Shown here: piece by piece, positions 14,424 to 45,821 of the stretch
Layout: each line of letters begins with the position of its first letter
Position numbering within the stretch: the stretch's first letter is position 1
IMG/VR virus record: IMGVR_UViG_3300028840_001533
Coordinates: 1 to 49,261 of that record
DNA length: 49,261 nt
Direction: 5' to 3' (one strand)
Source: a virus
Position numbers and translations under genes: made by a program
The notes under the pieces: generated by a model
The model's input: only the letters and a program-made list of their open reading frames with translations
Told to the model about the DNA's origin: nothing
Databases searched by the model: none

Positions 14424-16457
14424 CTAAAGTGGAATCATGTTCCCAGATTGCACAGCCTTGTCAATCTGCTCTTCACTCTGCACATTGACCCCAGGCTGCG
14501 ATGCCCCGGTCTGGGCCTCTGGCGGAAGCTGCCCAGGCAATCCGCCTACTCCCATGTTGTCAGGCATCTTATACTTGAACTGATCCAAGTAGTTGATGCC
14601 AGCACTCCTCACGAACTCGTCAAACACAGCAATCGGATTCAGCACCTTGCCTTCGAGGTCAGGGTTCATCAGCTGCGGCGCTTGCGCCAGCATCGTTAAC
14701 AGCTGGCCCCAGATTGCTGTCATACGCGCTGGGTCAGGTGTCATCATCTGAGTGTGAGGGATGTAATCGTACTCGCCTTGGAGATCATCTGGAGCAATTT
14801 TGAACATCTGAGCTTTGTCTGGCCCACCCAGCTGCTCAACCAATCGCCCAACAAGGCGATAAGTTTTTTCCATTGTGGAAAACTGCTGCCGATTAGTAAT
14901 GAGGCGACGAGCATACGGCTCCATCATCATCGTGTCTTGCAGCTGGGCTTCAATCCCAAGGCGAAGCGATGCCGATTCGTTAACGGTCTCGACTTCACCA
15001 AGCGTCCGCTTCCCAGGCAGCGGCATGCCCTGCATGGTATCTGGAGCAGCGCCCATCCGTTGCAGCATCTGGAAGAGTAGCTGGAATGTGCTGAGGTGCT
15101 GCTGAGTGATATCGGTAATGGCAAATTGAGCGTACATATCCTGGATACGCATTTGCCCCATTTCCTGCATTCTCTTGCCCCTGCGGGTCAAGCGAATGTG
15201 CTTAGCCGGTTCCGGCGAAGCCATGTCTACAGGGTTGATTAGATCGTCATTGAAGATCACCATGTCATTGACGATCTTCTTAGCATTGATCATGTGGGAG
15301 TTTACGAACCAGTCTGATGCGTCCTGTCCACCAATCATCTGCTGCGCCATGCCTGGGACAAACGGAGCATGGAAATCTGGGTCAGGAATTGAAACGCAGT
15401 AAGTAAACTCGTCATGCGAGTAAACACTCTTGTGCGCCCTGATAATCAGGCTTTCGTCGTAAACAGAGAACCACCAAATCTCTGGCTTGTCTCTCGCCGC
15501 AAGCCCCCACTCCTTCGGAATAATCTTCCACTGAAGGTGATCAACAGGCGGATTCGGGTACTTACGCGTACCCGAATTCGAGTACGACCCATCGATCCAC
15601 GTCCCGTCATCGTTGAAGGTGGTCGATTGCTCATTCGCCAACTTTCGCATCTGCTTCAGATTGAAGAATGCCCCAGTCCCCTGCATCAAACTGCGCTCAA
15701 GGTACCAAAGGATGTTCGTGTAATCAGTGTGGCCAATGTAGTTGGAAACCTGTGGATCACCGATTGGCACATTGGGATCAGGTAGGAAATTTCGGGGATT
15801 CACAGCAGCAACATTGTTCCACTCTTTTGTGCGAGTCCACACGGGTTCATCCAAGTTGACGCCCATGAGCATCGCTTCAAGGGGACTGAGGCCTTTCTGA
15901 GCTTGGTACCCGAACTTTTCCTCGAACGTGTCGTACCAGATCGCTATGCCGTACCGCTCCTGGTCCATGATCGCCTGCCACATCTTCAGGTCGAACTTGG
16001 ACTGCCGAAGATCGTAGCGGGCAACCACCTCGTGTACGCGGGACCCTATGAAATCGTCCGACTCCGTAGGCTCGTAATGGATACGCGGGTCCGTCTGCGT
16101 CAGCTGTGAATACTTGTGCGCTGCCCTGGTCATGATCAGCGTGTACATCACTGGCATACAGATGGCACCCTTGTAGGGCATTTGCTTCTTGCCTTCTGTA
16201 TCAAAGCTTTTGTCAGCGTACCGCTTGGGTGCGTCGAAGTCGTAGTACAACCGCATGTACTTATCGACCATGTCCCAGTCTTCAGCGCGTTGATCGATGT
16301 GCGCCTTCGATGCCCTGATCATGGATTGAAGCTCACTGAGGAGCCTGCCGTGCTCTGGGCTTTTCCAATTCAGAGTCTCATGCACGGGCTTATCAAGCAC
16401 CTGGATCTTTGCGTCCTGCTCGATAATCAGCCCATTAGAGTCCTGCGAGTCCGCCAT
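14424..16457 (-). CDS. Portal protein
   Basis: The 677-residue protein forms the dodecameric DNA channel at the capsid vertex. The N-terminal part reads AEDWDMVDKYMRLYY with a later MPYKGAICMPVMYTLIMTRA, then a wing-like domain with Trp/Arg clusters, a helical clip/stem region (MLQRMGAAPDTMQGM) and a Gln/Pro-rich C-terminus. Size and position right after the large terminase fit the portals of podovirus-like phages with SU10-type capsids. The start at 16457 has a GAGG site and overlaps the end of the terminase gene by 23 bases. The longer in-frame version adds 16 residues deeper in terminase. Confidence 0.85.
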   Translation of the reverse strand: MADSQDSNGLIIEQDAKIQVLDKPVHETLNWKSPEHGRLLSELQSMIRASKAHIDQRAEDWDMVDKYMRLYYDFDAPKRYADKSFDTEGKKQMPYKGAICMPVMYTLIMTRAAHKYSQLTQTDPRIHYEPTESDDFIGSRVHEVVARYDLRQSKFDLKMWQAIMDQERYGIAIWYDTFEEKFGYQAQKGLSPLEAMLMGVNLDEPVWTRTKEWNNVAAVNPRNFLPDPNVPIGDPQVSNYIGHTDYTNILWYLERSLMQGTGAFFNLKQMRKLANEQSTTFNDDGTWIDGSYSNSGTRKYPNPPVDHLQWKIIPKEWGLAARDKPEIWWFSVYDESLIIRAHKSVYSHDEFTYCVSIPDPDFHAPFVPGMAQQMIGGQDASDWFVNSHMINAKKIVNDMVIFNDDLINPVDMASPEPAKHIRLTRRGKRMQEMGQMRIQDMYAQFAITDITQQHLSTFQLLFQMLQRMGAAPDTMQGMPLPGKRTLGEVETVNESASLRLGIEAQLQDTMMMEPYARRLITNRQQFSTMEKTYRLVGRLVEQLGGPDKAQMFKIAPDDLQGEYDYIPHTQMMTPDPARMTAIWGQLLTMLAQAPQLMNPDLEGKVLNPIAVFDEFVRSAGINYLDQFKYKMPDNMGVGGLPGQLPPEAQTGASQPGVNVQSEEQIDKAVQSGNMIPL

Positions 16458-17757
16458 TGTATCGCCTCGTTTCCTCTCGCTCATAGATCTCGTTTGGCAC
16501 TTCAATATAGAAGCTAGACGGCATATCCATCATCACCCAATAGCCTAACCCGTCCGTTGCGTGTGTCAATAGCGCCCGGTCATCTTCCGGGTCCGAAATC
16601 TTCATCAGCCCCGTTCCGGGTTCATTCCATTGAACTCTCTGGAAGTCCTCGATGAGGTACTCACAGACATCTGAGATGAGCAGTGGCTTCCACTTGTTAG
16701 CGCCACGAAGCACCTGATTGACACTGTGGATCCTGTCTGGCACACGCGGGTTCTTCGGCGGAACGTAGAATTCAGGCTCGCTCGGATAACCCTCAAACTC
16801 TTTTTCCATAATCTCCAGCAAGCTTTGCCCTCCTGCTGAAGAGGATCCGGCTGAGGCATCAGGGAAAATTCGCAGTCCACCTGAGTGCGTTGGGAACATG
16901 GCGCGGAAGTTACGAACCATCTTCGGGATACTTGCTTTCTTATACTGGGAGACCTCTGAAATAACCACTGGCTGATCCCCGATCACCTGGATTACAGGCC
17001 ACGCCATGAGAAGGTGATTGAAGTCACAGCCAAGACGGATCGGCAATCGAGGATCGTACATCTCCATCGCCTTATCCGGTGGGATAACGTTGACGGTATT
17101 CTTGAAATCTTCGTACGCCGCCGCTTCCACGAATTCAACAAACGCGCCCTCAAGCTCCTGCTTGAGCCAGTAACCACTGTACTTCTCTTCCAGTGATTCA
17201 ATGAAGTAGTCAGGAAGAAACGTGTTGGTCTTCGAGGAGCACTGAGTAAGGTGATACTTTTCGCGTCCATCTCGAACGAAAAGTTTCCACAACCAATTCT
17301 TCCCCCTCGGGGTGGTTGTGACCCACGCTCTTCCTGGCCCCAGCCGGAGTCGGCCTATCATCAGGTCCCAAACCATTTGGGGCATCATCGCGGCCTCGTC
17401 CAACCAAAACCACCCAAGGTTGGGACCGCGTAGTTTGTCAGGGTCGTCGCATGAACGAAACAACAACTCTGTACCATTCTCCAGAGTTGCCGTCATGTCG
17501 GACTTCTTGTAATCCTTCAGAATGCCACACTCTTCCGTCACTTCGAGAAAGGTGTGAATGGTGGCATCCTGAAGCATCCTGTATGTAGGAGCTACCACAG
17601 TGCCTCGCGAGCGACTGGGCATCCGCATTACCTCGACAACACCAGCCCTGGTCTTCCCTGATCCAACCCCTCCTACGAAGGCGCGGAATCGAGCAGGGTT
17701 CTGCCAGAACTCCATCTGAGGATGCGTGCCGCCGTGGTCTATGCGGAACTTAGCCAT
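16435..17757 (-). CDS. terL: Terminase large subunit (packaging ATPase/nuclease)
   Basis: The 440-residue motor protein has Walker A at 29-36 (GGVGSGKT), Walker B ending in D120-E121 (WFWLDEA) and a motif III-like TTTPRGKNW at about 148. The C-terminal RNase H-like nuclease has first acidic residue D245 (LGCDFNH), a second site around FPDASAG and the late DGLGYW. It pumps DNA into the prohead through the portal. The start at 17757 has a GGAGG site seven bases upstream; the longer in-frame version (17916) is implausible because it reads through the preceding gene. The small subunit is separated from it by three surface-protein genes. Confidence 0.93.
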   Translation of the reverse strand: MAKFRIDHGGTHPQMEFWQNPARFRAFVGGVGSGKTRAGVVEVMRMPSRSRGTVVAPTYRMLQDATIHTFLEVTEECGILKDYKKSDMTATLENGTELLFRSCDDPDKLRGPNLGWFWLDEAAMMPQMVWDLMIGRLRLGPGRAWVTTTPRGKNWLWKLFVRDGREKYHLTQCSSKTNTFLPDYFIESLEEKYSGYWLKQELEGAFVEFVEAAAYEDFKNTVNVIPPDKAMEMYDPRLPIRLGCDFNHLLMAWPVIQVIGDQPVVISEVSQYKKASIPKMVRNFRAMFPTHSGGLRIFPDASAGSSSAGGQSLLEIMEKEFEGYPSEPEFYVPPKNPRVPDRIHSVNQVLRGANKWKPLLISDVCEYLIEDFQRVQWNEPGTGLMKISDPEDDRALLTHATDGLGYWVMMDMPSSFYIEVPNEIYEREETRRYNGGLAGL

Positions 17758-30873: not shown

Positions 30874-32457
30874 ATGAGCCAGATAGACACAATCACCGTA
30901 CCCTTTTTGGAGCAGTTCTATGGCGACGCAATCAGCCACGAGGCACGTTTCGCCATATGGACTAAGCATAACAGGGCACACGTATGGTGTTCGTCTATCG
31001 ACGCGATCAAGAAAGCGGTCAAGCCAGAACGTGATACCTACTTCACGATGGCCGCGTATCCGAGGGGCATTACTAAGCGGACAAAAGATAATGCTTACGG
31101 GCTATTCGGTGTTTGGCTCGACATCGATTGTGAGAAAGACAATGGAGAAAAAAATTACTTCCCTTCAGTCAACAAAGCTATCGACTGGGTCACTGATGAG
31201 CTTTCAGGATTTTGGACCTGGATTATTCACAGTGGGGGCGGGATCCATGTCTACCTCATGTTTGACGAACCTTTCTGGATCGAGGAAGACGAAGACAGAA
31301 TACGGGCCAGCAAGATCATCAAGGCGTTTCATAGATGGGCTGATGGCCGGTGCCCACACACCATTGATTCACTTATCGACCTGTCGCGGGTCATGCGCTT
31401 ACCTGGGACAATCAACACAAGGACAAAATCACCATGTCAACTAATCGAGGAAAGCGGGCACTCAACTTCCTTCAGCGACTTGGAGTCATTCTTACCGGAG
31501 GTTTCCTTAGACGAAGACAGCCGGTCAGCGGAGTCGATAGACGGAGAAGTAAATATCTCCGAATTGAAGCGCCAGCTGCACCTCCTTCAGGAGTCAGATT
31601 CTACGTTCGATTCTACTTGGCGTCGAGCACGAAGACTGAAAGACTCTTCGCCGAGTGGCTACTGCATGTCACTAGCGAATCTCCTGTGTGCATCAGGCTT
31701 CCACGACGGCCAAATTATTGTGGCATTGAAGTTGTGGAGGGAAGCACAGAACGACGCCTCGGAGAAGCCGGAATCTTGGTATATGAGTACCGTAAAACGT
31801 GCTCGTGCGAACACAAAGGGGGAGGTGGTAGGAAACAAGGTCACCGCAGCCTTGGAAGAGGACGACCCGGAATCTCACATAGCTGGCATCTCAGCGGTCT
31901 TGAGCAAGACAGTAAAAAGGATCGAGAAGAGAATCATCCCGGAATTCAAGGGGCAAAAGGAAAAGAGTAGCTACGTGTTCTACTTTGAAGACGAAAGCAC
32001 GCTGGTCATACCAGACACTGACACGCTCATGAAGCAAGAGCGTATGCGAGCTATTGCTTACGAAGAAGCAGGTGTCATGATTCGGCGGCTCAAGAATCCT
32101 CAGTGGGATGATTTCCTATCGTTGGTACTACAGGCCAAAGTAGACGTGAAAGAAGCAGAGGAGGGGAACAGGGCGTACAACATTCTCAACGAGCTACACA
32201 ATTTTGTAGATCGCAAGCGCGACTTATCGAATATTGTGGCGGAGCTTGAGAACATGACAGCCACCACGCTCTACGAGGAAGACGGTGTTGTGTACTTCAA
32301 ATGGGAGCTTTTTAAGCGACACTTGTCCGGTTCCGGCTACCAGATTCAGAACTCCAACATGGCGAGGTTACTTAGAGATCTAGGGTGTGAGAAACGACAA
32401 TTCTCAGGACATGGTAGGCCCAGGCTTTGGTCTGTGCCGCCAAAGGAGGAACAATGA
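30874..32457 (+). CDS. AEP-family primase (prim-pol type)
   Basis: The 527-residue protein shows the archaeo-eukaryotic primase signature: LDID (D83, D85), GGGIH (121-125) and DLSRVMRLPGTIN (169-181). The C-terminal half is helical and may be a PriCT-like or winged-helix region (GYQIQNSNMARLLRDLGC near the end). It would synthesise primers, possibly also extend DNA, at the phage replication fork. No replicative polymerase was found in the window, which raises the weight of this gene. An AGGAGG site is upstream; the end overlaps the pilin-like gene by ATGA. Confidence 0.8.
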   Translation: MSQIDTITVPFLEQFYGDAISHEARFAIWTKHNRAHVWCSSIDAIKKAVKPERDTYFTMAAYPRGITKRTKDNAYGLFGVWLDIDCEKDNGEKNYFPSVNKAIDWVTDELSGFWTWIIHSGGGIHVYLMFDEPFWIEEDEDRIRASKIIKAFHRWADGRCPHTIDSLIDLSRVMRLPGTINTRTKSPCQLIEESGHSTSFSDLESFLPEVSLDEDSRSAESIDGEVNISELKRQLHLLQESDSTFDSTWRRARRLKDSSPSGYCMSLANLLCASGFHDGQIIVALKLWREAQNDASEKPESWYMSTVKRARANTKGEVVGNKVTAALEEDDPESHIAGISAVLSKTVKRIEKRIIPEFKGQKEKSSYVFYFEDESTLVIPDTDTLMKQERMRAIAYEEAGVMIRRLKNPQWDDFLSLVLQAKVDVKEAEEGNRAYNILNELHNFVDRKRDLSNIVAELENMTATTLYEEDGVVYFKWELFKRHLSGSGYQIQNSNMARLLRDLGCEKRQFSGHGRPRLWSVPPKEEQ

Positions 32458-32984
32458 AAAAAGGTTTCACATTGATTGAGGTGCTGATTACGGTTGCTGT
32501 AATCGGGATCCTCGCAGCCGCTGTGGCGTACGGACTGAGCCTCACTGCACAGGCGAGGCTCACAGCTTGCGTTGCGGACATCAGGGCGCACGCCGAGATG
32601 ACGATGCAGCTTGAGGAGCAGACGAGATGGACGGCCCCAACCACTGAAGAGATGTATGAGTGGATGGGCAGCAAGCGGAAGAAGCACTACTACTACGTGC
32701 CAAACAATTACGATGCAAACAGCGGGCACGGCAACGACCTCGACATCTGTGACGAGGAGAACCCAGGCGCATCTACTGAGAACAGGGATTGCCTCGATAT
32801 TAAATGGGTGTGGATTTGCAACCACCACCATGGCTCCCTTGGAAGGTACGTGTTTGCTGATTCAAACTTGAATGTATGGGTTGTGCCACTGAGTCCTGGA
32901 CAGCTGCCAGCAGAAGTAATGATCAAGGATTTCTTTTATTGGATGGGCAAGGACCCGAACCTACAGAAATGGATAAGGGAGTGA
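32454..32984 (+). CDS. Type IV pilin-like protein (prepilin)
   Basis: The protein starts [18 protein letters not shown], an unmistakable class III signal: cleavage after Gly4 by prepilin peptidase, new N-terminal Phe, Glu at position 5 and a 20-residue hydrophobic helix. The remaining 140 residues form a polar globular domain with Cys at about 39, 97, 111 and 120 ([24 protein letters not shown]). At 176 residues it matches minor pilins/pseudopilins in length. It has an AAAGGAGGA site. A pilin in a phage replication operon is unusual; it may enter the host pilus or secretion machinery and alter phage receptor function. The host peptidase would be required. Confidence 0.85.
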
Positions 32985-32986
32985 AC

Positions 32987-34318
32987 ATGAAATCTGTAAA
33001 ATACTGGGATGACGAGTGGCTCGCAATTGCCGTTGTTTCTGCTTTAATGCTCCTCTGCGCGTCTTTCGTAGCAGCAGACGTAATCCACAAGCCGATTGTG
33101 GCCGTGTCCGGTGAGCCGGTGGTCATGCCCTTCACATCTGGGGCAAACTGTTCGTTCCCACTGATCGCGGCCCAGAACATCGAGGTTGGCGAGGTTCTGC
33201 TGACCTGGACCGACACGCATCTGTGGGTGACGTATCTGATCACGGACTACGACTGGACAATCACGGAGGCAAATTTCGGATGGCAAGAAACCCCATTCCC
33301 GTATGCGATACCTGGGAAACTTCAACGGGTGTTCGATCACCTAACGACACAAGCTCTTCAATTCAAGATTCCACGGACGGAGGTCCACTCGGATCTCTAC
33401 TTCGCGGCGCACGCCGTTGTGAAAAGCACGACCCCATGTTCAGCTGGCACGAAGCACTTGACCCCGAACCAGAGGAACAACCCTCACTTGCCGAGCTACA
33501 CTTCCTTCAGGGCGTACCAGGGTGGCTCACGGGCTATGTTCCGATTGGAACTAGAGGGCGCCCCGCCGTTCAACAGGAACGGATTCAACGGATGGTGCCT
33601 CGACCGCCAGCGCAAGGTACGCACGGGCCAGACCTACGATGCACGGGTAATTACGGACTGGGACGAACTGGCCGGTATCGTTGACCACCCGGAGAACATC
33701 CACTACGTCGAGTGGATCATGGAACAGAACTTCGTTGGAAGGGAGATCGTATGCGGAAAGATCGTGACGAGAAGGCATGTCCAGCTTGCAATATGGAATC
33801 TGCTCGACGACCCGAAGAAACCGATGACATGCGTCCCACGGGCGCTGGTTCGCCGCGCATTGAGCCACAAGGGACCCCACCAGAAATCAACTACGCGAAA
33901 CTGCTGGGGGACACAGGCGATCTTCGTGCTCGATCCCTTGTACAAGACCTACATGGACGACTCGGGTCAGCAGATCGTGTCACCAAACCACAAGGTACAG
34001 CCGATGATCGTGGACTTGAGGGGGATTATCGAGTGCCCGTCACCGACACCCACACAGACGCCCACCGAAAAGCCATCGCCATCGCCCACGCCCACGCCAA
34101 GCAACACGCCGACGGCTACACCTACGCCAACCGGAACCTGGACGCCACCGCCTACGCCCACGTATACGCCCACCGCTACGCCAACGCCTACGTGCAAGCC
34201 TTCCAAGACGCCTACGCCGACGCCATGCGTAACCGTGTCTTCTGAGACAGCCTGGGCGCAGGGGCAGTACTGGTTCAACCAGAAGTGGGGCTGGTCCTTC
34301 AGGTGCAGCGATGAGTGA
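32987..34318 (+). CDS. Secreted Pro/Thr-rich protein with possible thioester motif
   Basis: The start at 32987 (two bases after the pilin stop) gives 443 residues. Residues 12-31 are a signal-peptide-like hydrophobic stretch ending VAA. The body holds GWCLDR (C204) and VQLAIW (Q266), which fit the [W/Y/F/L]C-hydrophobic and hydrophobic-Q-x-x-hydrophobic-W motifs of thioester domains, though the spacing is shorter than in streptococcal examples. Residues 351-413 are a Pro/Thr linker, and the end ([17 protein letters not shown]) resembles a C-terminal module of bacterial exported proteins. It would lie outside the cytoplasm, perhaps as a lysine-reactive adhesin or surface blocker. The coding frame was chosen over two other open frames because only it gives these coherent motifs. 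Confidence 0.65.
34037..34225 (+). repeat. Pro/Thr-coding low-complexity repeat
   Basis: This stretch of short ACGCCC/ACCCCG-type units encodes the Pro/Thr linker of the secreted protein. It also creates open frames on both strands that are not genes. Repeat length is likely to vary between relatives. Confidence 0.8.
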
Positions 34319-34811
34319 CAAGGACAAGCGCATCGAGCAACTAGAGGAAGCTCTAAAGGTGTGCCGCGAAGTGCGGGACGATTGGCACAATCAAACCGAC
34401 GATCTTCTCGTTAAAGTTCAGGAACTGGAGATGTACCAGGGCGGCTTCATGGAAGTGAGAGCGGAGAACGCCTCACAACGCGCCACGATTGACGCTCTTG
34501 CAAAAGAAAATAAGAGCTTACTGGAGCGCATCGCGGAGTTGGAGATGCGGCTGTCTCTGAAGGGCGAGGTCAACGCAAACCTTGAAGCAGACAACAGGGC
34601 ATTCTACAAGCGCATCGAGGAGTTGGAGAAAGATCGAGATTCCTACCACGAGATTGAAATAGATGAAGAAGGTCAACCAACCAACCTCCACATCATCACC
34701 CGCAAGCAGATCAAACGAGCGTTGGCGTACACGAAGTGCTTCATCGGACCAGCGCGGAACAATCTTTTCAAGCTGCTGGAAATCCTCGGCATCGAGGTGA
34801 GCGATGAGTAG
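34311..34811 (+). CDS. Coiled-coil protein
   Basis: Most of the 166 residues form a long coiled coil ([52 protein letters not shown]), followed by a short helical C-terminus ([14 protein letters not shown]). It overlaps both neighbours by eight bases, so translation is coupled between the secreted protein and the UvrD-type helicase. The function is unknown. Confidence 0.65.
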
Positions 34812-36339
34812 AACTACACTCTTCGGCCCCCCTGGTAGCGGGAAGACAACAACCTTGTCTAAGTGGGCAAGGCAGGCTGCTGACAAACATGGTGGACACA
34901 ACATCATGATCTGCTCACTCACAAAGACTGCCGCCATCGAAATCCAGTCCCGTAATACAGGGGTTCCCAAGGAGAATGTAGGCACTCTCCACGCACATGC
35001 CTATCGATCTGTGACAGCTGAATTTGAAGGCCGGTACAAGGTAATCACAGACAAGGATCGAGACGAATTCAATAGGGGACGACCACATTCTCAGCACTTG
35101 CCGAAAGACAAGATAAGTGAAGACAGCGAGCAGAGATTCAGTGACAGCATCTCTGGGAGAGTGGCGCTATTCAGGGCACAGTGCATACCAAGTAGGAGGT
35201 GGCCAGATAGCGCGAAGAACTGGTGGGATCAATACATTAGCTGGAAAGAAGCCAACAGCCTCATCGACTTTACTGATATGATCGAGCTAGCATTGAACCA
35301 CATCGATTGCCCACTCGATCACATCATCCTAGACGAGGCGCAGGATTGCTCTGCTCTTGAATACAGGCTCCTCCAAAAGTGGGCCTCACAGGCGAAGAAT
35401 GTGGTGATCGCTGGCGACGACGATCAAGCTGCTTACGAATGGCGAGGCGCATCCGTTGATGCCTTCCTAGGGTTCTCGACTGATCAGCGGGTGCTGCCTC
35501 GCTCTTACCGGCTACCAAAAAGGGTTAAGGAGTACGCAGACAGATGGATAAGGCAAATCAAAAATCGGAAGATGAAGGAGTACGAGCCAACAGCCAACAA
35601 TGGACTAGTGTCCGAAATGGTCACCCGACACCCTGCCCACATTGTGGAAGAGGCATCAGCGTTAGATGGAACCACCATGATCTTATCAACGTGCGCCTAT
35701 ATGCTGAAGCCGATCCTCCAGGTTCTCCAGGAGAACAAGATTGCGTATCACAACCCCTACCGTGTGAAGGGGGATTACGCCTCGACATGGAACCCACTCT
35801 TGGCTGGAAGTGGTACCACTGTAACAAGTGCGGATGCGGTGCGTGCATTACTCACAACACCGTGGAGCTACAGGCTGCTCCATTCATGGGTGAGGGAGAT
35901 GTCATCATCGCACTTGGCTTATGGCACGAAGGCAAAATTGAAACGCGAACGCTCGAACGATTCCTTAGTGCCAATGGGAGAACTCTCCAACTTGCTTGGA
36001 CCGGAGAACCTCAACCGCGCACTCAAGGGGGACGTGCAGTGGTGGCTGAGCACCGTGAAAGACGGGAAGAGAAGAGAACAACTTGCGTTCAGGTATACCC
36101 TGATTTCAGCCATGTCATCTATGAAGGAGACCCCGTCTATAATTGTGGGGACCATTCACAGCGTGAAAGGTGGGCAAGCGGACAATGTTTTTCTCATTCC
36201 AGATCTGAGCATGGCTGGGAAGGAGTCTTACCTGGAGAACCCGGACCCAATCATCCGTCAAATGTACGTAGGGATGACGAGATCTAAAGACAAACTTATC
36301 CTCGTTCCTGCTGCAAGAAGGGCAATGTTGCAATGGTAA
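34804..36339 (+). CDS. UvrD/Rep-type superfamily 1 helicase
   Basis: The 511-residue protein has Walker A GPPGSGKT (8-15), motif II DEAQD (177-181), motif III GDDDQ (204-208), motif IV RSYRLP (about 235), motif V GTIHSVKGGQADNVF (about 453) and motif VI YVGMTRSKDKL (about 490). It is a 3'-5' type translocase by family. It may unwind at the phage fork or process recombination intermediates. It is encoded next to a VRR-NUC nuclease, and the two could work together in end processing. The start overlaps the coiled-coil gene by eight bases. Confidence 0.88.
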   Translation: MSRTTLFGPPGSGKTTTLSKWARQAADKHGGHNIMICSLTKTAAIEIQSRNTGVPKENVGTLHAHAYRSVTAEFEGRYKVITDKDRDEFNRGRPHSQHLPKDKISEDSEQRFSDSISGRVALFRAQCIPSRRWPDSAKNWWDQYISWKEANSLIDFTDMIELALNHIDCPLDHIILDEAQDCSALEYRLLQKWASQAKNVVIAGDDDQAAYEWRGASVDAFLGFSTDQRVLPRSYRLPKRVKEYADRWIRQIKNRKMKEYEPTANNGLVSEMVTRHPAHIVEEASALDGTTMILSTCAYMLKPILQVLQENKIAYHNPYRVKGDYASTWNPLLAGSGTTVTSADAVRALLTTPWSYRLLHSWVREMSSSHLAYGTKAKLKRERSNDSLVPMGELSNLLGPENLNRALKGDVQWWLSTVKDGKRREQLAFRYTLISAMSSMKETPSIIVGTIHSVKGGQADNVFLIPDLSMAGKESYLENPDPIIRQMYVGMTRSKDKLILVPAARRAMLQW

Positions 36340-37168: not shown

Positions 37169-37374
37169 GAAAACGAATACTCAATTGGGTTGCTTACCAC
37201 ATTGGTCTGTGGTCCATCCAATTCCGCGAGAATTGGTATCACGTAACGGGGACGTGGTTGTGGGGCATAGCTTCATTCATTGAGAGTCGCCCGCCTGGGC
37301 CTCGTGAGTCTCCTCCTATTGCAGACTCAGGGGAGTGGCACGCATTGATGGATAAGCTTTTTCAGTCAAACTGA
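37165..37374 (+). CDS. Small hypothetical protein, last gene of the plus arm
   Basis: This is a 69-residue, Trp-rich protein (LNWVAYHIGLWSIQFRENWY) with a possible membrane-surface helix. It ends 13 bases inside the end of the giant minus-strand gene, so the two arms converge tail to tail. No clear terminator was seen in this junction. No family was recognised. Confidence 0.5.
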   Translation: MRKRILNWVAYHIGLWSIQFRENWYHVTGTWLWGIASFIESRPPGPRESPPIADSGEWHALMDKLFQSN

Positions 37375-40300
37375 CTGAGCCACGCTTCTCGATACGATTT
37401 ATTGAATCCCTTTCGGATTCTATTCTTGGCATCCGGGTCGTCCGTTTCCCGGATGCCTTTTTGTGCATCTGTGAGCTTCTTGAACAACGGGACCATCCAG
37501 CCATTGTCTTCTTTCCAGTCAGCCAGTTGATCACCTTCGAGGTTCTTGTAAGCCTTCTCACCCTGCTCTAGCCCCTCGATGTTCTCATAGAAAACCGCTG
37601 CTGCCGTGTAGTCTGCAACCTCGCCGTAAATTCTCCGCAAGAAAACGATGTCGTTGGCCTCATACTTTGAGAGGTCGCCACCTGTCATCACGTCTTTCAG
37701 CCACTTGGCATCAGTGAAAAGTCTTGCGCCAGTCTTCGCGCCAGCGCCAGTGTACGCGCCAACGAGGTACTCCAGAGTCTCAGGGTTCTGGTCGATCCAC
37801 CCCGACTCATACTCGTTCCCGCCAGTCCATCGATTCACAAAAGCTGTGAGTTCCCTTGCGATTGGATTAACGCTTTTGAAGTACCGCTGCGAGTCCGGGC
37901 TATGGTCCCACGAGGACCTCACAGGGGCAATCGGAGCGCCGTAGTACGTCTCGTTCACGAACGTGTCTGCAATCGGGGCAAAGGCTGACGGAACCAGCCA
38001 CCTGACGGCTTCCCACTTGCTGTCCAGGCTCGCGCCGCCAAGCGGGTTGAAGGCTGTCATGATCGCGTTGAACAGGTTCGCCGCCCCTTTTGCTGTCCCC
38101 TCTACTGTCGATGTCCCAGACAGGACTGCATGTAACATTGCCTCAAGCTGAGTTCCAACCACATGAAACACGTTATACCCGTAAGGCAGCGGGATTTTAA
38201 TGTGCTGGCCTTCGCCCTCTGGCATCATGACAATCAGGCTGCGCTCCTTCTGCCAGTCTCCGATTTTCTCCCACCAAGGATACCCGTCTTCCTCATCTTC
38301 CCCGCCAATGCCGCGATTGAATGCAGCCAGTGCCCACGATGCCATGATCTGTGCGCCGACCAGCTTTTGAAGCGACTTGTTCTTGGGATTCAGCACAGCT
38401 GACATCATGCGGGCGGTGCCCTGGATCGACGCATTTGCAAACAAGTAAAAAGCGTTCAGCGCCTGCCCTGCGTCACCCTTTTTGTTGAAGTTAACTGTGA
38501 GGTTTCGACCTATCGCCGCTGCCTTCTTACGCGAAACTCCAGCCTTACGAGAGGCAACATAAACGGAAAGGCGCGCAGCATTCTCAACCGAAGAGTTAGC
38601 ACTAGAGACAAGATCGCCTACTTTCTGCGCGTACGAAAACGTGTTGTACACCTTGCTGTTGCCAGCACGTTCTACCTTGCGCTGGATAGATCGCGCTTTT
38701 GTAACCACGTCCGTGTATCCAAAGAACCCGATTTTCCCGCCGTCTGCTACGTACTCATTGTAGTACTTGACCCACTCGTCAGCTGCTACCTCTGCATCTT
38801 CCTTGAACGTGAGTCCCTCTGCTTTGCGGATTGCGTTGATTGCTTTCGGCACATTCAACAGGGTCTCATTCCTCACATGCTTGAGATCCTCTGCTGTCAT
38901 ATTGAAGCCCGCTGTTTGGACATCACGAAGTAGGTTGGCGATTACAAACTCTGGGTTGTACGTTGTGTTGGCAGCTGCCATGAACCTGTTAACGGCAGCG
39001 AATATCCTCACAGCGCTGTGCATCGGCCCTGAGCCAAGGTTCTTCATTGCGGTTGACAGCCTGGAATCAAAGATCTCAATGTAATGAGTCTTGCCATCCT
39101 TCTTGACGGCGACCACGTTGTCCTCGTTATTTGCGAACGCGTCCTTTACAAGCCTCACTGTTCCGGTGCTGCGGTCCCATACCCTGCGCCGCGTGACAGA
39201 GTTCACTTTGTAGAGATTCTCATTCGGAAACTCTTGCACAAGCTCAAGGAATGCTTGACCAACACGATTCTTTTCTGCCCTGACAATGGCTTCCTCGATA
39301 TCCACAACCGCCTGTGCAAGAACTGGACGCGTGTGCTTAGTGTCTCCGACTCTTCCAAAGCTGAACCCAAGCTCATCGCCTCTGATGTCAAAGCCTTGCC
39401 CTGTGTGGATGTTTGCATCCTCTAGGATTTCCTCAAGGTCTCCCTTGAATTCCTTCCCTTTGAGAGGGACGTAGTGCTCGTAGATGCTCACGTTCTCAAG
39501 CTGCTGATCTGTAATCAGCCCAGCCTCATGAAGGATCTTCAACTTCTGATCCATCATGTTATCGAAAAGCCTTGCCACACCATCGAACTTGTTGCCAGCC
39601 TCTTTAAGCACCCCTTCAGCTTGTTCGTTTGTCATGCCTGAGTGCTGGATATTCGGCTTCAGATTCGCTAGATCTTTCTTCCGTCTGTAAAGCCTTCGCT
39701 TCAGTATCGTTGTGTCGTAGTCACGAGATTCAGCATACTCAATCTGGTTTTCGATGTTTGAGATTTCTTTTTCCCACCGCTTCTTCTTCCGGTTGTACCA
39801 AACATCGTCAAGATGAGCGTTGCGTTCCTCTGCGTGCCGTGCGTGCAGCCAGTTTTCAAATTCCTCTATGTTGAAGTTGCCTTCATGCAAGGCGTCGAGC
39901 AATGGATTCACGTACTCGCGCTCGAACGCCTCAACTTGGTCAGCGGCCTTTCCGTGGTACAGCATTTCGTGAAGGTAAGCATCCATGTCTTCGTGGATGT
40001 TCCCGTACCTCTTTTCAATCTCAGTCTGAAGCTGCTTCACGCGATAGAACTTGTCCTGGAATTTGTTAATCAGCCACGACTTCCAGGTTTGGTCAGGTAG
40101 CCCCCAGGCTGGGCCTGATTCTGGGTCGAGGCCAGAAAGCGGCTGGGCCTGATGGAGGTTGTACAACGGTGTACGAAAACCTCGACCCGGAGGGAAGTGG
40201 CCTGGGCCTTCCGAGAACGAATAGTAATTCAGCGAGCCAAGGGGGGCAGTCTTGACAGGCTTCAAACGTATGTCCACAGATTCCGTCGGTCTTCCCTTCG

Positions 40301-43300
40301 AGTCGAGAACTGGTACTTTCTCTTTCGTTCCAGCAAGGTACCCAGCTGCGGAATGCTGCTCTTTTGCAAAATTAATTTCCCGCTTTGAGAGATGCGGCAG
40401 CTTGTACAAGCCTGGGAAGTTGATCTCATGCGGCTCAAGGCGACGGCGATATCGATCCCACTCAAACCACTGCGTCGCGAACAAGCCCATGTTTAGTTCT
40501 TGTGCTCGCTTTGCATTCACAAGCAGCGCGTCCTTGTATGCCTCGGACATCTTCTGAATCGTGATGTCTTTCTCAGGCCCAAGCCACTTGCCTTCAAAGT
40601 TCTTCCAGTGTTCAGGCAGTTTGTGGTTTTTCTCGCCCTTCTTCGTAAGGTAGACAGCGGTTCCAGGCTTCATCTTATCCATGATTGCCTTTACAAAATG
40701 GCCGTCTCCACCTGGACGCATGAACAACTCATCAAAGTTTTTGATTTCGCCTTCCTCTACCCTCGCCTTGATTCTCCCTTCCTTCTTAGCAGCCTTGCTT
40801 TTGTTCCAGTCTTTAATGACCTTCATTTCCCACTCAAGGCGCTCTTGTGGAGTTGGGAAAAGCACCGGCTCATAGATCCGCCCCATGTGACGGTCAACCG
40901 CTGAAATGGCAGCGCCAAGCGGGTCCTGCCAGACAGCAGCGAAGCTGGCCACCTTCGTCGCCATGCCCCTGAATTGTGAGCCAAGGCGCTCAACGTATGT
41001 GTGCCAGGATGTAGGCGACTCAGGGCCACCATCCATGTTCTGCTTCAAGAACCAATCTGGGTCCGACTGATAAAACTGATTCAACTCAGCGATGTTCGTC
41101 ATCTCAGCAGTACCGAGCAGCCCCATCCCGCCGCTCTCTTTTGCTTGGAGATTGAACTCTCTAGAAATCTTCGAGTTGTAATAGTTCCTGTACCACTTAT
41201 CGAATCCGTGCCCTCCAGGCCTGTTCTCCATCAGCCATTCAATCGACCGGGTCTGAGGCTTCGCTTTAATCTTGAGCCTCTTCCGTCGGTCAGTCTCAGC
41301 TGACTTGTATGCTGCCTTGATGAACCTGATTGCTTCCTCGTTGTCAGCATCGTACTTTAAGAATGATTCAGCGTTCCCTGATTCACCCTTTGTGGTATCC
41401 CAGGGAACCCGCTTCGCCCACTCCTTACTTTCCTCGTCGTTCCTCACACGGACGACAGCGTACGAAAGCTCATTCGGTGTGAGCGGCTGGTTGGGACTGA
41501 GCATCGAGAAGATGAAATGGTTCAGAACCTGAAGCGTGTCTTTTGGATCCGGCTGCATGGTACGTACGATCTTGTGGTGGAGATCGCGGTGGATGTCACG
41601 CGGCAAGTTGTACACATCAATGGCCTGATGCTTGAGCCAGAGGATCTCCTCATAGGTGAACGTGCCATCGAGGCCACCTGGAATCTCCACGCCTGGGTAG
41701 ATCTCTACCATCTTGCCCATGCCGCCGAGATTCTTAACCCCGTGCTTTTTACCGAGCGCATTCCAGTCCTCAGTTGTGTACTCGCTGACCAGCTTGTCGG
41801 AATCCTCGATGCCGGTAAAGGAGTAGAACGAATCCATGCCAAGGGCCTTAAAGATCTTTTGGACCTCCTCTAGCTGGTCCGTTCCTTCAGGCAACTCATC
41901 GATTTTCACTATGGGCTTCGTGCCCTCTGTGTCCATTCCGAGTGCCTCAAAAAGACTCTTGGCCTCTTCCGTCAATTTATCTTCTTTACTCAAAAAGTTA
42001 ATGACTTGCTGTAGCTCAGCGTTAACAGCTTTCAACATTGCTGATGTTTTGTCTGCATCCGGGTCCTTGCTGTGAAGCGAATACATGACATCATCCTGTG
42101 CGCGGATGTGCCGCATGGCATCGATCCTGGCACGCTCTGACTCTGTTTCCTCCTCAACATCGAAAACATCATGCACCTTGGTCTCGACTTCCCCTGAGTC
42201 AAGGACATTCGTTGTGGTGATATCGTCGTAGGCCTGCCTCACAGAGTCTTCGTCGAGGCCAAGCTCAGATCGTAGCTCTGCTTCAGAAAGCTCGTACTCT
42301 GTATCTGGGAGCGGATCTAAGTCGCCAAGCATGCCGATATATTGCTCGTCAGTATATCCGGTAGTCTCGAACACTCCGTGCCGGTCTAGCAAAACATCCT
42401 GTGAAAGCACGCCTTCCTGGTAGATGTCGTCATCAGTTGTCCACCAGCTGGGCACATCGCCTTCTTTCCTGCGGGACTTACTATAAAGAGGAATTCTTGT
42501 ATACGCGTCTTTCCCCTTCCAGCCCTTTTCAGCCCTGACGCCGCCAACTCTGTACCCGCCAATCCATAAAGCATCAGGATACATCTCTGAAAAGATGTCG
42601 CGTGCAGCAGCAACCTGCCTGACGCCCATGCTGGTGTAGCGCTTTTTCATGTCTGTAATCAGATCGCCCTTTTTGTCAAAAACCGCTTCAACGTACTCTA
42701 CGTAAACCTCGCGGTCTCGCTGCACACCGTCCCGATCAGCCCAGTAGGAGGAATTCTTATACCTCTCCCTTGTTAGGATGTAGCCAGCTGGCCCGTAATC
42801 ATTTGAAATGACATAGGCCCTTGTGCCTGGGGCACTGTCAACTTCCCAGCCAGACATTACTTCCAAGATCATTCCGTGTTTGTACAGGTGATCTTCGCGC
42901 TCCTCTGCTGTGAGATCCTCGTCAGCCGTTGGATCGACGCTCACAGGGGTGATGTTCAGCGAATACTGGCCCGCAGCTTTCTCTGCAAGCTCATCCTCTT
43001 CCTCGAACAAGGATCGCTGTGCTTCGAGTTGCTCGGCTGTTCTGCCCTCTTCAAAGAGATTTTTCTGCGGCCCAGCAAGGGCCTCTTCCTGGGGGTTCTC
43101 GAACTTCATAAACCGCTTGCCGCCGCTCACAGTCACCCGTGACACATCCCCGTCATTATTGACGTAATGAATCACTCGCTTGCCGCCTTTGGCCTCAGCT
43201 TTGGTGACCGTAACCACCTCATTGTCCACTTCCAGCTGGTCCCCAACCTCAAGCTTGGCAGCGGTGGTCCTAATCATAGGCTCATCGAGCAGGATTTGCG

Positions 43301-45821
43301 GCTCTCGCGGCTCCTGGACCACCTCCCTAGGGGTAGGGCCGACTCTGACCTCGGCGGGCTTAGAGGGCGTTTCAAGCAGCTTTTCTTGGGTGGCCTCGCG
43401 GGTTTCCTCCTCCACCGCAGGCTCTTCCTCGGTAATCAGTGCTTCACCGCGAGGCTCAGGCGGCGCAACCTCGCCAATATCTGTCAACTGTCGCTTTCCG
43501 GCACGCTTCCCCTTATCTTCAAGAATTGTGGGTTCACGAGGTACAACCTCGGTGTCCTCTTCAATGGTTGGGGTCCTTGGCGCAGGGGCCTCAACGCCTT
43601 CAATTGAAACCTTCTTCCTGCCTCTGCGCCCGAAGTTGTCAGGCTGGATATCGATGGCCTCACGCTGCCCAGTTTGCAGCATTTGCGCGAACTGGTTTAT
43701 CAATCGAGTGTTCGCTTCCCTTCTCTTGATGTCGAATTCCTCATCAAGGTACGGGAACGCATCCTTCACACCAGGAACTTTCCTGGCAACAGCGCGAGTG
43801 GTGTCCCAAATGGACTTCAACACAGATTTAATCGGCCCAGGACTCTTAACATCCAAATTCTGTGTTGCCGCTTGCAGCGCACGGTAGATTTCTTGTGACT
43901 TCCACTGAGCCACGTACGCGGTTGCTTCGTGAACCATGTCCACGTCATCGAGGGTTTGCCCAAGCTCAGCAGCCCTCGTCCTGATTCGATTCTCAACCTC
44001 TGCCATGTACTCTGGTCGAGCCGTATGCAGTGAGTCGTACATTGATTTCAGCGCATCGAAGTTGCGCTTCCCGAGAACGTGGATGGCCTCGTGCAGGGCT
44101 ACACCTGCAACCATCTGCGGCGCAGTTGCGTCCCAGCGCACCATGATCCTGCCATCAGTGCCGACTGAAACGCCGTTGGATCCAAGCATTTCTCCGTTTG
44201 TCGCTCTGAAGAAATCAACCCTGGCACCAAGGCTCTCGACAACCCCTTTGACGGTTCTGAGCGCAGTGCTCTTAGCATCAACAATTTCCAGCGTATCAAG
44301 GGCCTCTTGAATCTGAGCAGCGCCTTCCTCGTTGCCTTGCTCAACCATGTTTTGCTGCTCAATCAAGGCGATGTCTCTGATTGCTTGAAGCCCCTCATCT
44401 TGCTCAACTGTTTGCTGTTCAGGCGCGACCGGCTCTACGGACACGTCCTCCTGAGGCCCTATCTCTAACTTGGCACCCTTGTATGCCTCATCAATCATTG
44501 CACGCTGCTCGTCTGGGAACTGCCCCATGTCCAGTTCACCTTTGACAAACGCTGTGCGCTGGTCATCTGTGAGGAAATCAAGCCCCTCGGCGTAATTTGT
44601 GAAGATCTGGTTAATCTGGTCCTCTGTCAGCGGCCTCACAGCACGAGGCGTCTGGACGTACCCGGCTGCGCCTTGCTCCTCAGGAGTCAGGTTGCGAATG
44701 CGAGCCAAGGCCTCTTGCCGCTTCTTGGCGTTTTCGATAATGCTTTCCATCGCGCCGCTTTCAACAGCGCCAACAAATGAAACCGGAATTTGAAGCACTG
44801 ATGCGAGGATTCCGCCTTCCAGGATCTCTCTTTGCTCCTCTGGATCGAGGCCCATCCAGAACTGCTGATCCCCTTTGCTCCACTTCGGTAGCTGCTGATT
44901 CACATACTCCTGGGCTATTTCAGTTGTTAGCTCGCCGCCCATCCCACCGGCCATTCTCCATAGGCCGCGCCTGAATCCTGTCGAAAAGATGTTTTTCACA
45001 AAGCTGTTGGGTGCGGCTCCAATAAGTGACTCAGCACCGAACTTTGCTCCGAGAACAGACTGCGTAACACCTGACAAAACTAGCTCTAGGTCACTTGCTT
45101 CAACGCCCTCTTTTCTGAATTCCTCAGCCTGCATCCCTGTGAACGTTGGGACCATCCCAGCCCAGACGGGCGCTCCGGTCACAGCAGTCAACGCCGCAGC
45201 TGGAGTCATGAACGCTGCCGAATCAGCTGCACCACCAGCGACCCAGTCGCCAACATCAACAATGTTTTTCAAAATGCCTTGATCAAGGTCCCCTTTGACA
45301 GCGGCCCACGCCCTGTGCCCACTGGTTTTTTTGATTGGCTCTAACTGATTAATTTCCTTTTCAAGCCACTCACCAATGGGCTGAAGCGATCTTTCGACCA
45401 TGCCCTCTGCGGCCTCGACATCAGATGAAAGGTCAACATCAATCCCGCCGCCTTTAAGGTACTCCTCAGTCTGCTTCCCGAATTCTCTTATCATCGGGGG
45501 GAGACCCTCTATGGTTCTTGGGATTGTCCGGCCAGCGAGTGTTCTCACAAAGGATTCAGCTTGCCTCAGAATTGGAAGCTCATTAACCTCGTATGCCCCA
45601 ATTGTTGGGCTGGTAGGAACCTTCGGTTCCTCAGGCTCCTGAGGCATTGTGGCCTCGACATACCCTCCAAGAAACCGGAATCGCTGCTCGTCATTTAGCG
45701 GTTGCAGCTTCTCATCCTTATCCATCAACCCCCAAATGACTCGCTGCTGATTTTGTGGATCGAGACTCTGGAAAGTCTCGTCGTTCACTGCCCTGTCAAA
45801 CCATGTTTTGAAGTCGGACAT
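37362..45821 (-). CDS. Giant polyvalent virion/ejection protein (2819 residues)
   Basis: At 2819 residues this is one sixth of the genome. Parts visible by eye: N-terminal helical domain (1-130); a Gly/Ala-rich helical region (about 200-350) that could span membranes; a zincin-like motif HEAIH (577-581) with a later E632 in VHEATAY; a long acidic, Pro-rich spacer (about 740-960); middle domains including a VDRHMGRIY site near 1642; a coiled-coil region near 1950-2000; and a C-terminal region with LNAFYLFANASIQGTARMM (about 2455-2475), the mark of the phage LPD38 domain. Such polyvalent proteins are packaged in the capsid and ejected into the host, where their domains counter host systems. The exact borders and activities are not provable here. 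Confidence 0.75.
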   Translation of the reverse strand: MSDFKTWFDRAVNDETFQSLDPQNQQRVIWGLMDKDEKLQPLNDEQRFRFLGGYVEATMPQEPEEPKVPTSPTIGAYEVNELPILRQAESFVRTLAGRTIPRTIEGLPPMIREFGKQTEEYLKGGGIDVDLSSDVEAAEGMVERSLQPIGEWLEKEINQLEPIKKTSGHRAWAAVKGDLDQGILKNIVDVGDWVAGGAADSAAFMTPAAALTAVTGAPVWAGMVPTFTGMQAEEFRKEGVEASDLELVLSGVTQSVLGAKFGAESLIGAAPNSFVKNIFSTGFRRGLWRMAGGMGGELTTEIAQEYVNQQLPKWSKGDQQFWMGLDPEEQREILEGGILASVLQIPVSFVGAVESGAMESIIENAKKRQEALARIRNLTPEEQGAAGYVQTPRAVRPLTEDQINQIFTNYAEGLDFLTDDQRTAFVKGELDMGQFPDEQRAMIDEAYKGAKLEIGPQEDVSVEPVAPEQQTVEQDEGLQAIRDIALIEQQNMVEQGNEEGAAQIQEALDTLEIVDAKSTALRTVKGVVESLGARVDFFRATNGEMLGSNGVSVGTDGRIMVRWDATAPQMVAGVALHEAIHVLGKRNFDALKSMYDSLHTARPEYMAEVENRIRTRAAELGQTLDDVDMVHEATAYVAQWKSQEIYRALQAATQNLDVKSPGPIKSVLKSIWDTTRAVARKVPGVKDAFPYLDEEFDIKRREANTRLINQFAQMLQTGQREAIDIQPDNFGRRGRKKVSIEGVEAPAPRTPTIEEDTEVVPREPTILEDKGKRAGKRQLTDIGEVAPPEPRGEALITEEEPAVEEETREATQEKLLETPSKPAEVRVGPTPREVVQEPREPQILLDEPMIRTTAAKLEVGDQLEVDNEVVTVTKAEAKGGKRVIHYVNNDGDVSRVTVSGGKRFMKFENPQEEALAGPQKNLFEEGRTAEQLEAQRSLFEEEDELAEKAAGQYSLNITPVSVDPTADEDLTAEEREDHLYKHGMILEVMSGWEVDSAPGTRAYVISNDYGPAGYILTRERYKNSSYWADRDGVQRDREVYVEYVEAVFDKKGDLITDMKKRYTSMGVRQVAAARDIFSEMYPDALWIGGYRVGGVRAEKGWKGKDAYTRIPLYSKSRRKEGDVPSWWTTDDDIYQEGVLSQDVLLDRHGVFETTGYTDEQYIGMLGDLDPLPDTEYELSEAELRSELGLDEDSVRQAYDDITTTNVLDSGEVETKVHDVFDVEEETESERARIDAMRHIRAQDDVMYSLHSKDPDADKTSAMLKAVNAELQQVINFLSKEDKLTEEAKSLFEALGMDTEGTKPIVKIDELPEGTDQLEEVQKIFKALGMDSFYSFTGIEDSDKLVSEYTTEDWNALGKKHGVKNLGGMGKMVEIYPGVEIPGGLDGTFTYEEILWLKHQAIDVYNLPRDIHRDLHHKIVRTMQPDPKDTLQVLNHFIFSMLSPNQPLTPNELSYAVVRVRNDEESKEWAKRVPWDTTKGESGNAESFLKYDADNEEAIRFIKAAYKSAETDRRKRLKIKAKPQTRSIEWLMENRPGGHGFDKWYRNYYNSKISREFNLQAKESGGMGLLGTAEMTNIAELNQFYQSDPDWFLKQNMDGGPESPTSWHTYVERLGSQFRGMATKVASFAAVWQDPLGAAISAVDRHMGRIYEPVLFPTPQERLEWEMKVIKDWNKSKAAKKEGRIKARVEEGEIKNFDELFMRPGGDGHFVKAIMDKMKPGTAVYLTKKGEKNHKLPEHWKNFEGKWLGPEKDITIQKMSEAYKDALLVNAKRAQELNMGLFATQWFEWDRYRRRLEPHEINFPGLYKLPHLSKREINFAKEQHSAAGYLAGTKEKVPVLDSKGRPTESVDIRLKPVKTAPLGSLNYYSFSEGPGHFPPGRGFRTPLYNLHQAQPLSGLDPESGPAWGLPDQTWKSWLINKFQDKFYRVKQLQTEIEKRYGNIHEDMDAYLHEMLYHGKAADQVEAFEREYVNPLLDALHEGNFNIEEFENWLHARHAEERNAHLDDVWYNRKKKRWEKEISNIENQIEYAESRDYDTTILKRRLYRRKKDLANLKPNIQHSGMTNEQAEGVLKEAGNKFDGVARLFDNMMDQKLKILHEAGLITDQQLENVSIYEHYVPLKGKEFKGDLEEILEDANIHTGQGFDIRGDELGFSFGRVGDTKHTRPVLAQAVVDIEEAIVRAEKNRVGQAFLELVQEFPNENLYKVNSVTRRRVWDRSTGTVRLVKDAFANNEDNVVAVKKDGKTHYIEIFDSRLSTAMKNLGSGPMHSAVRIFAAVNRFMAAANTTYNPEFVIANLLRDVQTAGFNMTAEDLKHVRNETLLNVPKAINAIRKAEGLTFKEDAEVAADEWVKYYNEYVADGGKIGFFGYTDVVTKARSIQRKVERAGNSKVYNTFSYAQKVGDLVSSANSSVENAARLSVYVASRKAGVSRKKAAAIGRNLTVNFNKKGDAGQALNAFYLFANASIQGTARMMSAVLNPKNKSLQKLVGAQIMASWALAAFNRGIGGEDEEDGYPWWEKIGDWQKERSLIVMMPEGEGQHIKIPLPYGYNVFHVVGTQLEAMLHAVLSGTSTVEGTAKGAANLFNAIMTAFNPLGGASLDSKWEAVRWLVPSAFAPIADTFVNETYYGAPIAPVRSSWDHSPDSQRYFKSVNPIARELTAFVNRWTGGNEYESGWIDQNPETLEYLVGAYTGAGAKTGARLFTDAKWLKDVMTGGDLSKYEANDIVFLRRIYGEVADYTAAAVFYENIEGLEQGEKAYKNLEGDQLADWKEDNGWMVPLFKKLTDAQKGIRETDDPDAKNRIRKGFNKSYREAWLSQFD

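Follow-up and report, generated by a model that had tools for sequence, protein, structure and literature searches.

A phage prepilin-type gene with a conserved four-cysteine domain, located among the replication genes of a tailed phage

Introduction

Why would a tailed phage carry, in the midst of its replication genes, a gene whose product starts like the precursor of a type IV pilin? The question is raised by an open reading frame of an IMG/VR virus record, the whole 49,261-base stretch of which was analysed and is called the window below. A sequence-only reading of this DNA had proposed a phage-encoded type IV pilin-like protein, and had argued that a pilin would be of no use to a virus except by acting on the host pilus or secretion machinery. 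Class III prepilins have a short, positively charged leader with Gly as its last residue, a hydrophobic residue at +1 and Glu at +5, and a prepilin peptidase cleaves and N-methylates them; both the peptidase site and Glu5 are important for processing and for assembly. In the type IV pilin fold, the long alpha-1 helix is packed against a head made of an antiparallel beta-sheet, and a disulphide-stabilised C-terminal region is a common, although not universal, element. In our judgement, the frame is almost certainly a true gene of the phage and encodes a prepilin-type protein, hereafter P0001. We give a probability of roughly 40% to the view, drawn from its sequence, that P0001 is a phage-made prepilin that would work with the host type IV pilus or the type II secretion pseudopilus and alter or poison the filament.

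Results

The prepilin-like gene and its operon

The features used below are as follows (L053 designates the record of a second phage described in the next section):

30874–32457, plus strand: primase-like gene (phrog_2478, E 8.6e-9; phrog_21866, E 1.6e-7; no Pfam match); four-base overlap with the ATG of the pilin-like gene
32442–32449, plus strand: Shine–Dalgarno site AAAGGAGG, read directly, ending four bases 5' of the ATG
32454–32984, plus strand: pilin-like protein P0001, 176 aa (PF07963, E 6.1e-8; TIGR02532, E 5.1e-9; L053 homologue, 45% identity, E 3e-59)
32724–32768, plus strand: acidic loop, residues 91–105 of P0001 (14 of 15 residues identical in L053)
32987–34318, plus strand: exported-looking protein, 443 aa, from translation (no Pfam match; PHROGs matches in the linker region only)
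34311–34811, plus strand: coiled-coil protein (C-terminal motif ITxxQIxxA...CFxGPARNNLxKxL; match to L195:11197–11829, E 3e-12)
34804–36339, plus strand: UvrD/Dda-like helicase (PF00580, E 3e-22; phrog_1967, E 1.1e-62)
16435–17757, minus strand: terminase large subunit (phrog_2, E 6.2e-43)
11698–12939, minus strand: major head protein (phrog_1328, E 1.2e-24)

The start signals and the complete prepilin signal described from the sequence alone are both borne out. The gene runs from an ATG at 32454 to a stop codon that ends at 32984, and a Shine–Dalgarno site precedes it. The N-terminus of P0001 is a class III prepilin signal in which the leader MKKG precedes the mature sequence FTLIE; the predicted cut follows Gly-4, which makes Phe residue +1 and Glu residue +5 of the mature protein. 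This region scores well above the curated cut-offs of PF07963 (32.4 bits for a cut-off of 21.2) and TIGR02532 (35.6 bits for a cut-off of 16.3), and P0001 is the only PF07963 match in the whole record. The signal continues into a hydrophobic helix, with a peak 19-residue hydropathy of 2.66 from residue 7, and the protein contains four cysteines, at positions 39, 99, 113 and 122.

The gene order, all on the plus strand, is primase-like, pilin-like, exported-looking, coiled-coil and UvrD-like helicase. The ATG of the pilin-like gene overlaps the stop codon of the upstream gene (ATGA, 32454–32457) and the exported-looking gene starts two bases past the pilin-like stop codon; such overlaps or two-base gaps between neighbours make a single transcript very likely. 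The earlier placement of the gene between those for a primase and a helicase is thus right on one side, where the gene directly upstream is weakly primase-like, but not on the other, where two genes intervene before the helicase. The 443-aa protein encoded directly downstream consists of an N-terminal hydrophobic segment, a long Thr/Pro-rich linker and a short C-terminal tail; from this layout it is likely to be Sec-exported.

The pilin-like gene sits among replication genes and not with the head, tail or lysis genes. More specifically, ArdC-like, SNF2-like, primase-like and UvrD-like genes make up part of a plus-strand block between about 21 and 37.4 kb, and the virion and lysis genes lie on the minus strand; the record, an IMG/VR virus record, also encodes a head–tail adaptor and a GTA-type holin. 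The operon is of an early type and the phage is a tailed one. A role of P0001 as a virion component, displayed or injected, is very unlikely given that the gene belongs to a primase–helicase operon and that the head and tail proteins are encoded on the opposite strand, even though a few phages have their prepilin-like genes near late genes (see below). Farther downstream, the minus strand encodes, at 37362–45821, what is probably a large polyvalent protein, 2819 aa in length and with an LPD38 domain.

No close relative of the window phage was found that contains the pilin-like region. Neither the primase-like gene nor the exported protein had a relative in IMG/VR, and megablast of window positions 22000–46900 against phages gave none either. 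A terminase scan yielded one 4.4-kb fragment (85% identity), which does not contain the pilin-like region, and the window terminase has at most about 29% identity to the best 20 of 950 matching named records.

An end-to-end homologue in a second phage

A search of IMG/VR with the acidic loop gave 33 loci, a single one of which (L053) had a prepilin start. This record, IMGVR_UViG_3300037524_000450, encodes a 183-aa protein (P0003) that aligns with P0001 over its full length, with 82 of 181 columns identical (45%, E 3e-59). The four cysteines occupy the same positions in both proteins, which also have in common the loop GHGNDLDxCDEENPG and, near the end, the motif DPNLQ[KR]WI. A match of this extent rules out chance for the pilin-like frame. 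Moreover, the sequence-only reading would have been undermined by homologues existing only as degraded fragments, whereas the gene is intact and its four-cysteine family contains an end-to-end homologue. The acidic loop is possibly a metal-binding site. Outside the search motif, identity between these two members, the only ones, is 24/43 in the core vs 13/36 in the helix; at p = 0.11 once the motif was removed, the idea of an inverted conservation, with the head more conserved than the helix, was dropped.

The second phage is of another type and the gene has other neighbours there. Its 82,783-base record contains genes for a tail sheath (phrog_23, E 4e-98), a major head protein (phrog_138, E 5.3e-68), DnaB, a primase and a CobS-like protein, which identify it as a sheath-bearing phage. 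As in the window, the pilin-like gene overlaps the preceding gene by ATGA. An exported-looking protein is encoded one gene further upstream; it shows no relation to the one encoded in the window. Comparing all window open reading frames of at least 60 aa with those of the same minimal size in loci L192–L195 and L057 (E <= 1e-3) gave two matches only, the pilin-like protein and the coiled-coil protein. The latter match amounts to 33% identity over 123 aa between the protein encoded at 34311–34811 and that of the second phage (L195:11197–11829), with 19 of 35 residues identical in the C-terminal stretch; neither coiled-coil protein, each with the CFxGPARNNLxKxL motif, had a match in 50,697 phage records. 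That two otherwise different phages keep the pilin-like gene together with a nearby companion argues for a function and suggests exchange between phages with related hosts.

These data bear on two trivial explanations. Contamination with host DNA, or a spurious frame in a chimeric contig, deserves mention since some 'phage' prepilin records do look bacterial (a 289-kb Salmonella record and the Microcystis phage MaAM05 record), but overlapping same-strand phage genes on both sides, the single PF07963 match and the second-phage homologue refute it for practical purposes. A recently captured host gene, useless to the phage, would fit with the prepilin signal being common in bacteria; it is a highly improbable origin in view of the 45% end-to-end identity with a protein of an unrelated phage, the absence of frame breaks, the tight operon overlap and the failure to find a cellular relative of the C-terminal domain in the genomes searched.

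The C-terminal domain

No relative with a known function was found for the C-terminal domain of P0001. Two more viral scans with the C-terminal part gave no further member, and tblastn gave no full-length match for P0001 in phages or for P0003 in phages and plasmids. A C-terminal profile (A2) searched against cellular genomes at E <= 0.001 had matches in 0/21, 1/398, 2/294, 0/249 and 0/28 genomes, that is 990 genome searches that covered part of the phyla and counted a few genomes twice, those with an empty result lacking a positive control. The three matches are all weak and none is a full relative: L165 is a long protein without a prepilin start, and L166 and L167 align over little beyond the acidic motif. 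In a scan of genome contigs, the best 80 of 189 matches were mostly N-terminal, and the C-terminal profile detected no full relative among them.

The acidic loop by itself is not diagnostic. The motif GHGNDxDxxDxxNPG was rejected as a family marker, with a prepilin start in only 1/33 of the IMG/VR loci that contain it (L053). It was found in 8/294 genomes of the G004 phylum (Planctomycetota), where, among the loci read, one protein only (L166/L173) has a prepilin-like start, and in 0/240 genomes of the G012 phylum. This acidic, glycine-rich motif occurs, often repeated, in many unrelated secreted-looking viral and bacterial proteins (e.g. L026, L033, L045 and L183).

Structure prediction gave models of low confidence. 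The first AlphaFold model of P0001 (pLDDT 44, pTM 0.25) has a helix at residues 7–51 followed by five strands, with a pLDDT of 75–87 in the first 20 residues only; a second model had a pLDDT of 39 and a pTM of 0.21. Foldseek with the first, low-confidence model returned no match at E <= 0.001. The likeness to cellular pilins is confined to the N-terminal part: geopilin (PDB 9egp) has a similar signal and helix (E 1.2e-4, residues 2–42), and the best stretches of sequence likeness to geopilin, PilA and GspG end at residue 69 or earlier. Likewise, the NCBIfam matches to the GspG major pseudopilin (TIGR01710, 24.4 bits for a cut-off of 88.85, E 2.4e-5) and to myxococcal PilA (NF041775, 25.8 bits for a cut-off of 400, E 9.1e-6) span the N-terminal part of P0001 and stay below their cut-offs.

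These comparisons have a bearing on the possibility that P0001 helps the host filament, as an additional or improved minor pilin or pseudopilin with which the infected cell would maintain a receptor pilus, the uptake of DNA or type II secretion. The GspG and Myxococcus PilA matches, N-terminal and far under cut-offs, point that way, as does a cyanophage pilin gene located near psbA, psbD and talC, which are host-metabolism genes. We consider such a helper role improbable, however, because the C-terminal part is unrelated to cellular pilins but for the short acidic motif, with three weak matches in 990 genome searches.

Prepilin-like genes in other phages

A pilin-like gene in a phage is less of an isolated case than it had seemed, as such genes are already annotated in public genomes. 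PHROGs contains a 'pilin' family in its moron / host takeover category (phrog_3433), and five more families that are listed as of unknown function match via the prepilin signal (phrog_27437, phrog_10597, phrog_13280, phrog_11263 and phrog_11596). P0001 matches five of these six families, in the N-terminal region only (residues 2–46 at best). Thus, the phrog_3433 proteins of cyanophages such as ACG-2014f, whose pilin matches the family over its full length (1–123, E 3.7e-60), are phage-encoded and have a prepilin signal and helix like those of P0001, but they align with P0001 over residues 2–44 only (E 7.9e-5) and their C-terminal part is unrelated. Similarly, phrog_27437, phrog_10597, phrog_13280 and phrog_11263 have the same signal as P0001 and tails that are shorter or unrelated.

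Prepilin-like genes of 28–157 aa with unrelated tails occur in phages of Vibrio, Aeromonas, Pseudomonas and Synechococcus, and in others. The intact ones encode 28 (Aeh1), 31 (PX29), 44 (PhiW-14), 59 (LSL4, CHA_P1 and Ab11, the last in an unannotated record), 66 (KVP40), 82 (Vibrio 1.081.O), 99 (PhiXhv-12), 107 (Acibel004), 123 (ACG-2014f) and 157 aa (Vibrio 033B); in S-CAM7, the annotated start of a 100-aa pilin falls inside the signal. Gp97 of Acinetobacter phage Acibel004 ('PilE-like'), KVP40.0030, Aeh1 ORF040c, PX29p038 and the 'type IV pilus subunit' of Xanthomonas phage PhiXhv-12, whose pilin-like label comes from the record or its notes, have a complete prepilin signal like P0001; unlike P0001, these 28–107-aa proteins lack the four-cysteine domain. 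The genes of Aeh1 (L198:1498–1584) and PX29 (L199:1501–1596) encode a prepilin leader and helix alone and adjoin ribonucleotide reductase genes; the two records themselves note the likeness to pilin N-termini. The 59-aa proteins of LSL4 and CHA_P1 (L201:1495–1674 and L202:1495–1674) belong to Pseudomonas aeruginosa Nankokuvirus phages, and LSL4 gp166c matches phrog_10597 over 59/59 residues. A tblastn search with the 31-aa PX29 stub gave matches in 161 of 50,697 phage records; some of these records are probably bacterial, and the matches listed are mostly annotated 'hypothetical protein'. Near its prepilin-like gene, the Microcystis phage MaAM05 record (L162) looks bacterial, with uvrA and a cardiolipin synthase gene as neighbours.

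The genomic contexts vary. Among 14 named phage records whose gene neighbourhoods were compared, including one without annotation and one that looks bacterial, five have the prepilin-like gene beside dNTP-synthesis genes (Vibrio 1.081.O, Aeh1, PX29, KVP40 and PhiXhv-12). Three of the named phages count against a uniformly early setting: in Vibrio 033B the gene adjoins a small terminase gene, in S-CAM7 a tail fibre gene is about 3 kb from the pilin gene, and in Acibel004 a 'structural protein' is encoded about 2.2 kb away.

In IMG/VR, 21 loci encode proteins of 36 to 326 aa with MKKGFTLI-type starts. They were rejected as relatives beyond the signal, 19 of them matching P0001 within residues 1–48 only; L009 and L017 reach residues 1–109 and 1–96, at 26% and 25% identity. 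At L021:6001–6531, in a record with a terminase match (G729), a TPM domain (PF04536, E 3.8e-35) follows a prepilin signal, the frame being broken by stops.

In all these phage proteins, the signal is common and the remainder differs. This pattern suits a reading in which the prepilin leader is an export or membrane-anchor tag only, with P0001 remaining in the inner membrane and its domain acting on the periplasmic side without entering a filament; it might there block entry, serve some role in the envelope or assist the exported protein encoded next to it. Indeed, the C-terminal parts of phage and viral prepilin-like proteins are unrelated to one another, from none at all in the 28-aa protein of Aeh1 to the TPM domain of L021, and an exported-looking protein is encoded directly 3' of the pilin-like gene in the window. 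An anchor-only leader would look the same as that of a filament-entering prepilin. Yet a plain transmembrane segment would suffice as an anchor, whereas the peptidase site and Glu5 are kept, and we regard this reading, the main alternative to the preferred one, as unlikely, if worth keeping in view.

Phage pilin-like genes are therefore already known as annotation, and P0001 adds to them a full-length four-cysteine family. Within the open PMC set, we found neither a functional test of a phage-encoded pilin nor a title or abstract opening about one; searches by term in PMC7911016 and PMC4128745 gave no result.

Dependence on host machinery

The PilB/GspE assembly ATPase (PF00437) scored above its cut-off in 0/24 virus records and in 14/14 control genomes, and the prepilin peptidase (PF01478) was found in neither the window nor the second phage record (0/2) and in 12/14 control genomes. 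With no ATPase or peptidase in either phage record, any processing must be the host's. A phrog_2 terminase match is present in 9 of 24 records (23 and the window), and PF07963 has four matches in G717 and two in G720, so that these records may hold bacterial DNA. The proposal that the pilin could profit a virus only through host machinery is supported by these absences as far as the need for a host machine is concerned. It is too strong in its exclusivity, as the leader may be a mere export or membrane tag, which in L021 is joined to a TPM domain.

Discussion

The preferred reading, that P0001 is a phage prepilin that would serve as a minor pilin or pseudopilin and alter or poison a host filament, can be laid out as a series of steps, assuming a host with a type IV filament. 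P0001 would be made early in infection, along with the replication proteins, and the host prepilin peptidase would cut it after Gly-4. Its helix would then lie in the inner membrane, from where the protein might be taken into the host filament or block it, the conserved domain being displayed or capping the base or tip of the filament. The four fixed cysteines suit a head located outside the cytoplasm, as expected in an oxidising compartment. The exported-looking protein, and likewise the coiled-coil protein, are possible partners. The dynamics or surface of the filament would be changed as a result; P0001 may in this way alter a receptor, and the most likely effect would be the exclusion of other filament-dependent phages from the infected cell.

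We tentatively extend this reading, at a lower level of confidence, to a whole class of proteins. Phages may repeatedly have made 'pilin mimics', from stubs of 28–31 aa to full-length proteins, counting at least six PHROGs families and the new four-cysteine family; as a class, they might become part of the host's type IV filament machinery or jam it, acting from the membrane, and so control a receptor or secretion filament during infection. P0001 would represent the domain-displaying form, which unrelated phages of a common host group would have exchanged along with its coiled-coil partner. It is a full-length addition to a known, functionally unexplored kind, and brings in a family with a conserved head domain, which the stubs lack. 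The phages with recurrent prepilin-like genes include phages of Vibrio natriegens (nt-1) and of P. aeruginosa PAO1 (LSL4); with such laboratory hosts, the function is directly testable.

Finally, there are phage proteins with which P0001 can be compared. According to two reviews (PMC11436027 and PMC11656802), Tip/Gp05 of D3112, Aqs1 of DMS3 and Zip of JBD26 inactivate the type IV pili of the host and impede other phages; as described there, control is exerted via the cytoplasmic motor or its cofactor, these proteins acting on the motor PilB or on PilZ, whereas P0001 is a prepilin look-alike. If the preferred reading is true, the phage would supply the filament with a subunit of its own and thereby reach a change of receptor by a different route. 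What P0001 would have in common with Tip/Gp05, Aqs1 and Zip is the proposed purpose, namely an action on the host pilus that excludes other phages; by analogy with these proteins, the best-precedented benefit of P0001 would be to counter competing phages by controlling the receptor filament.
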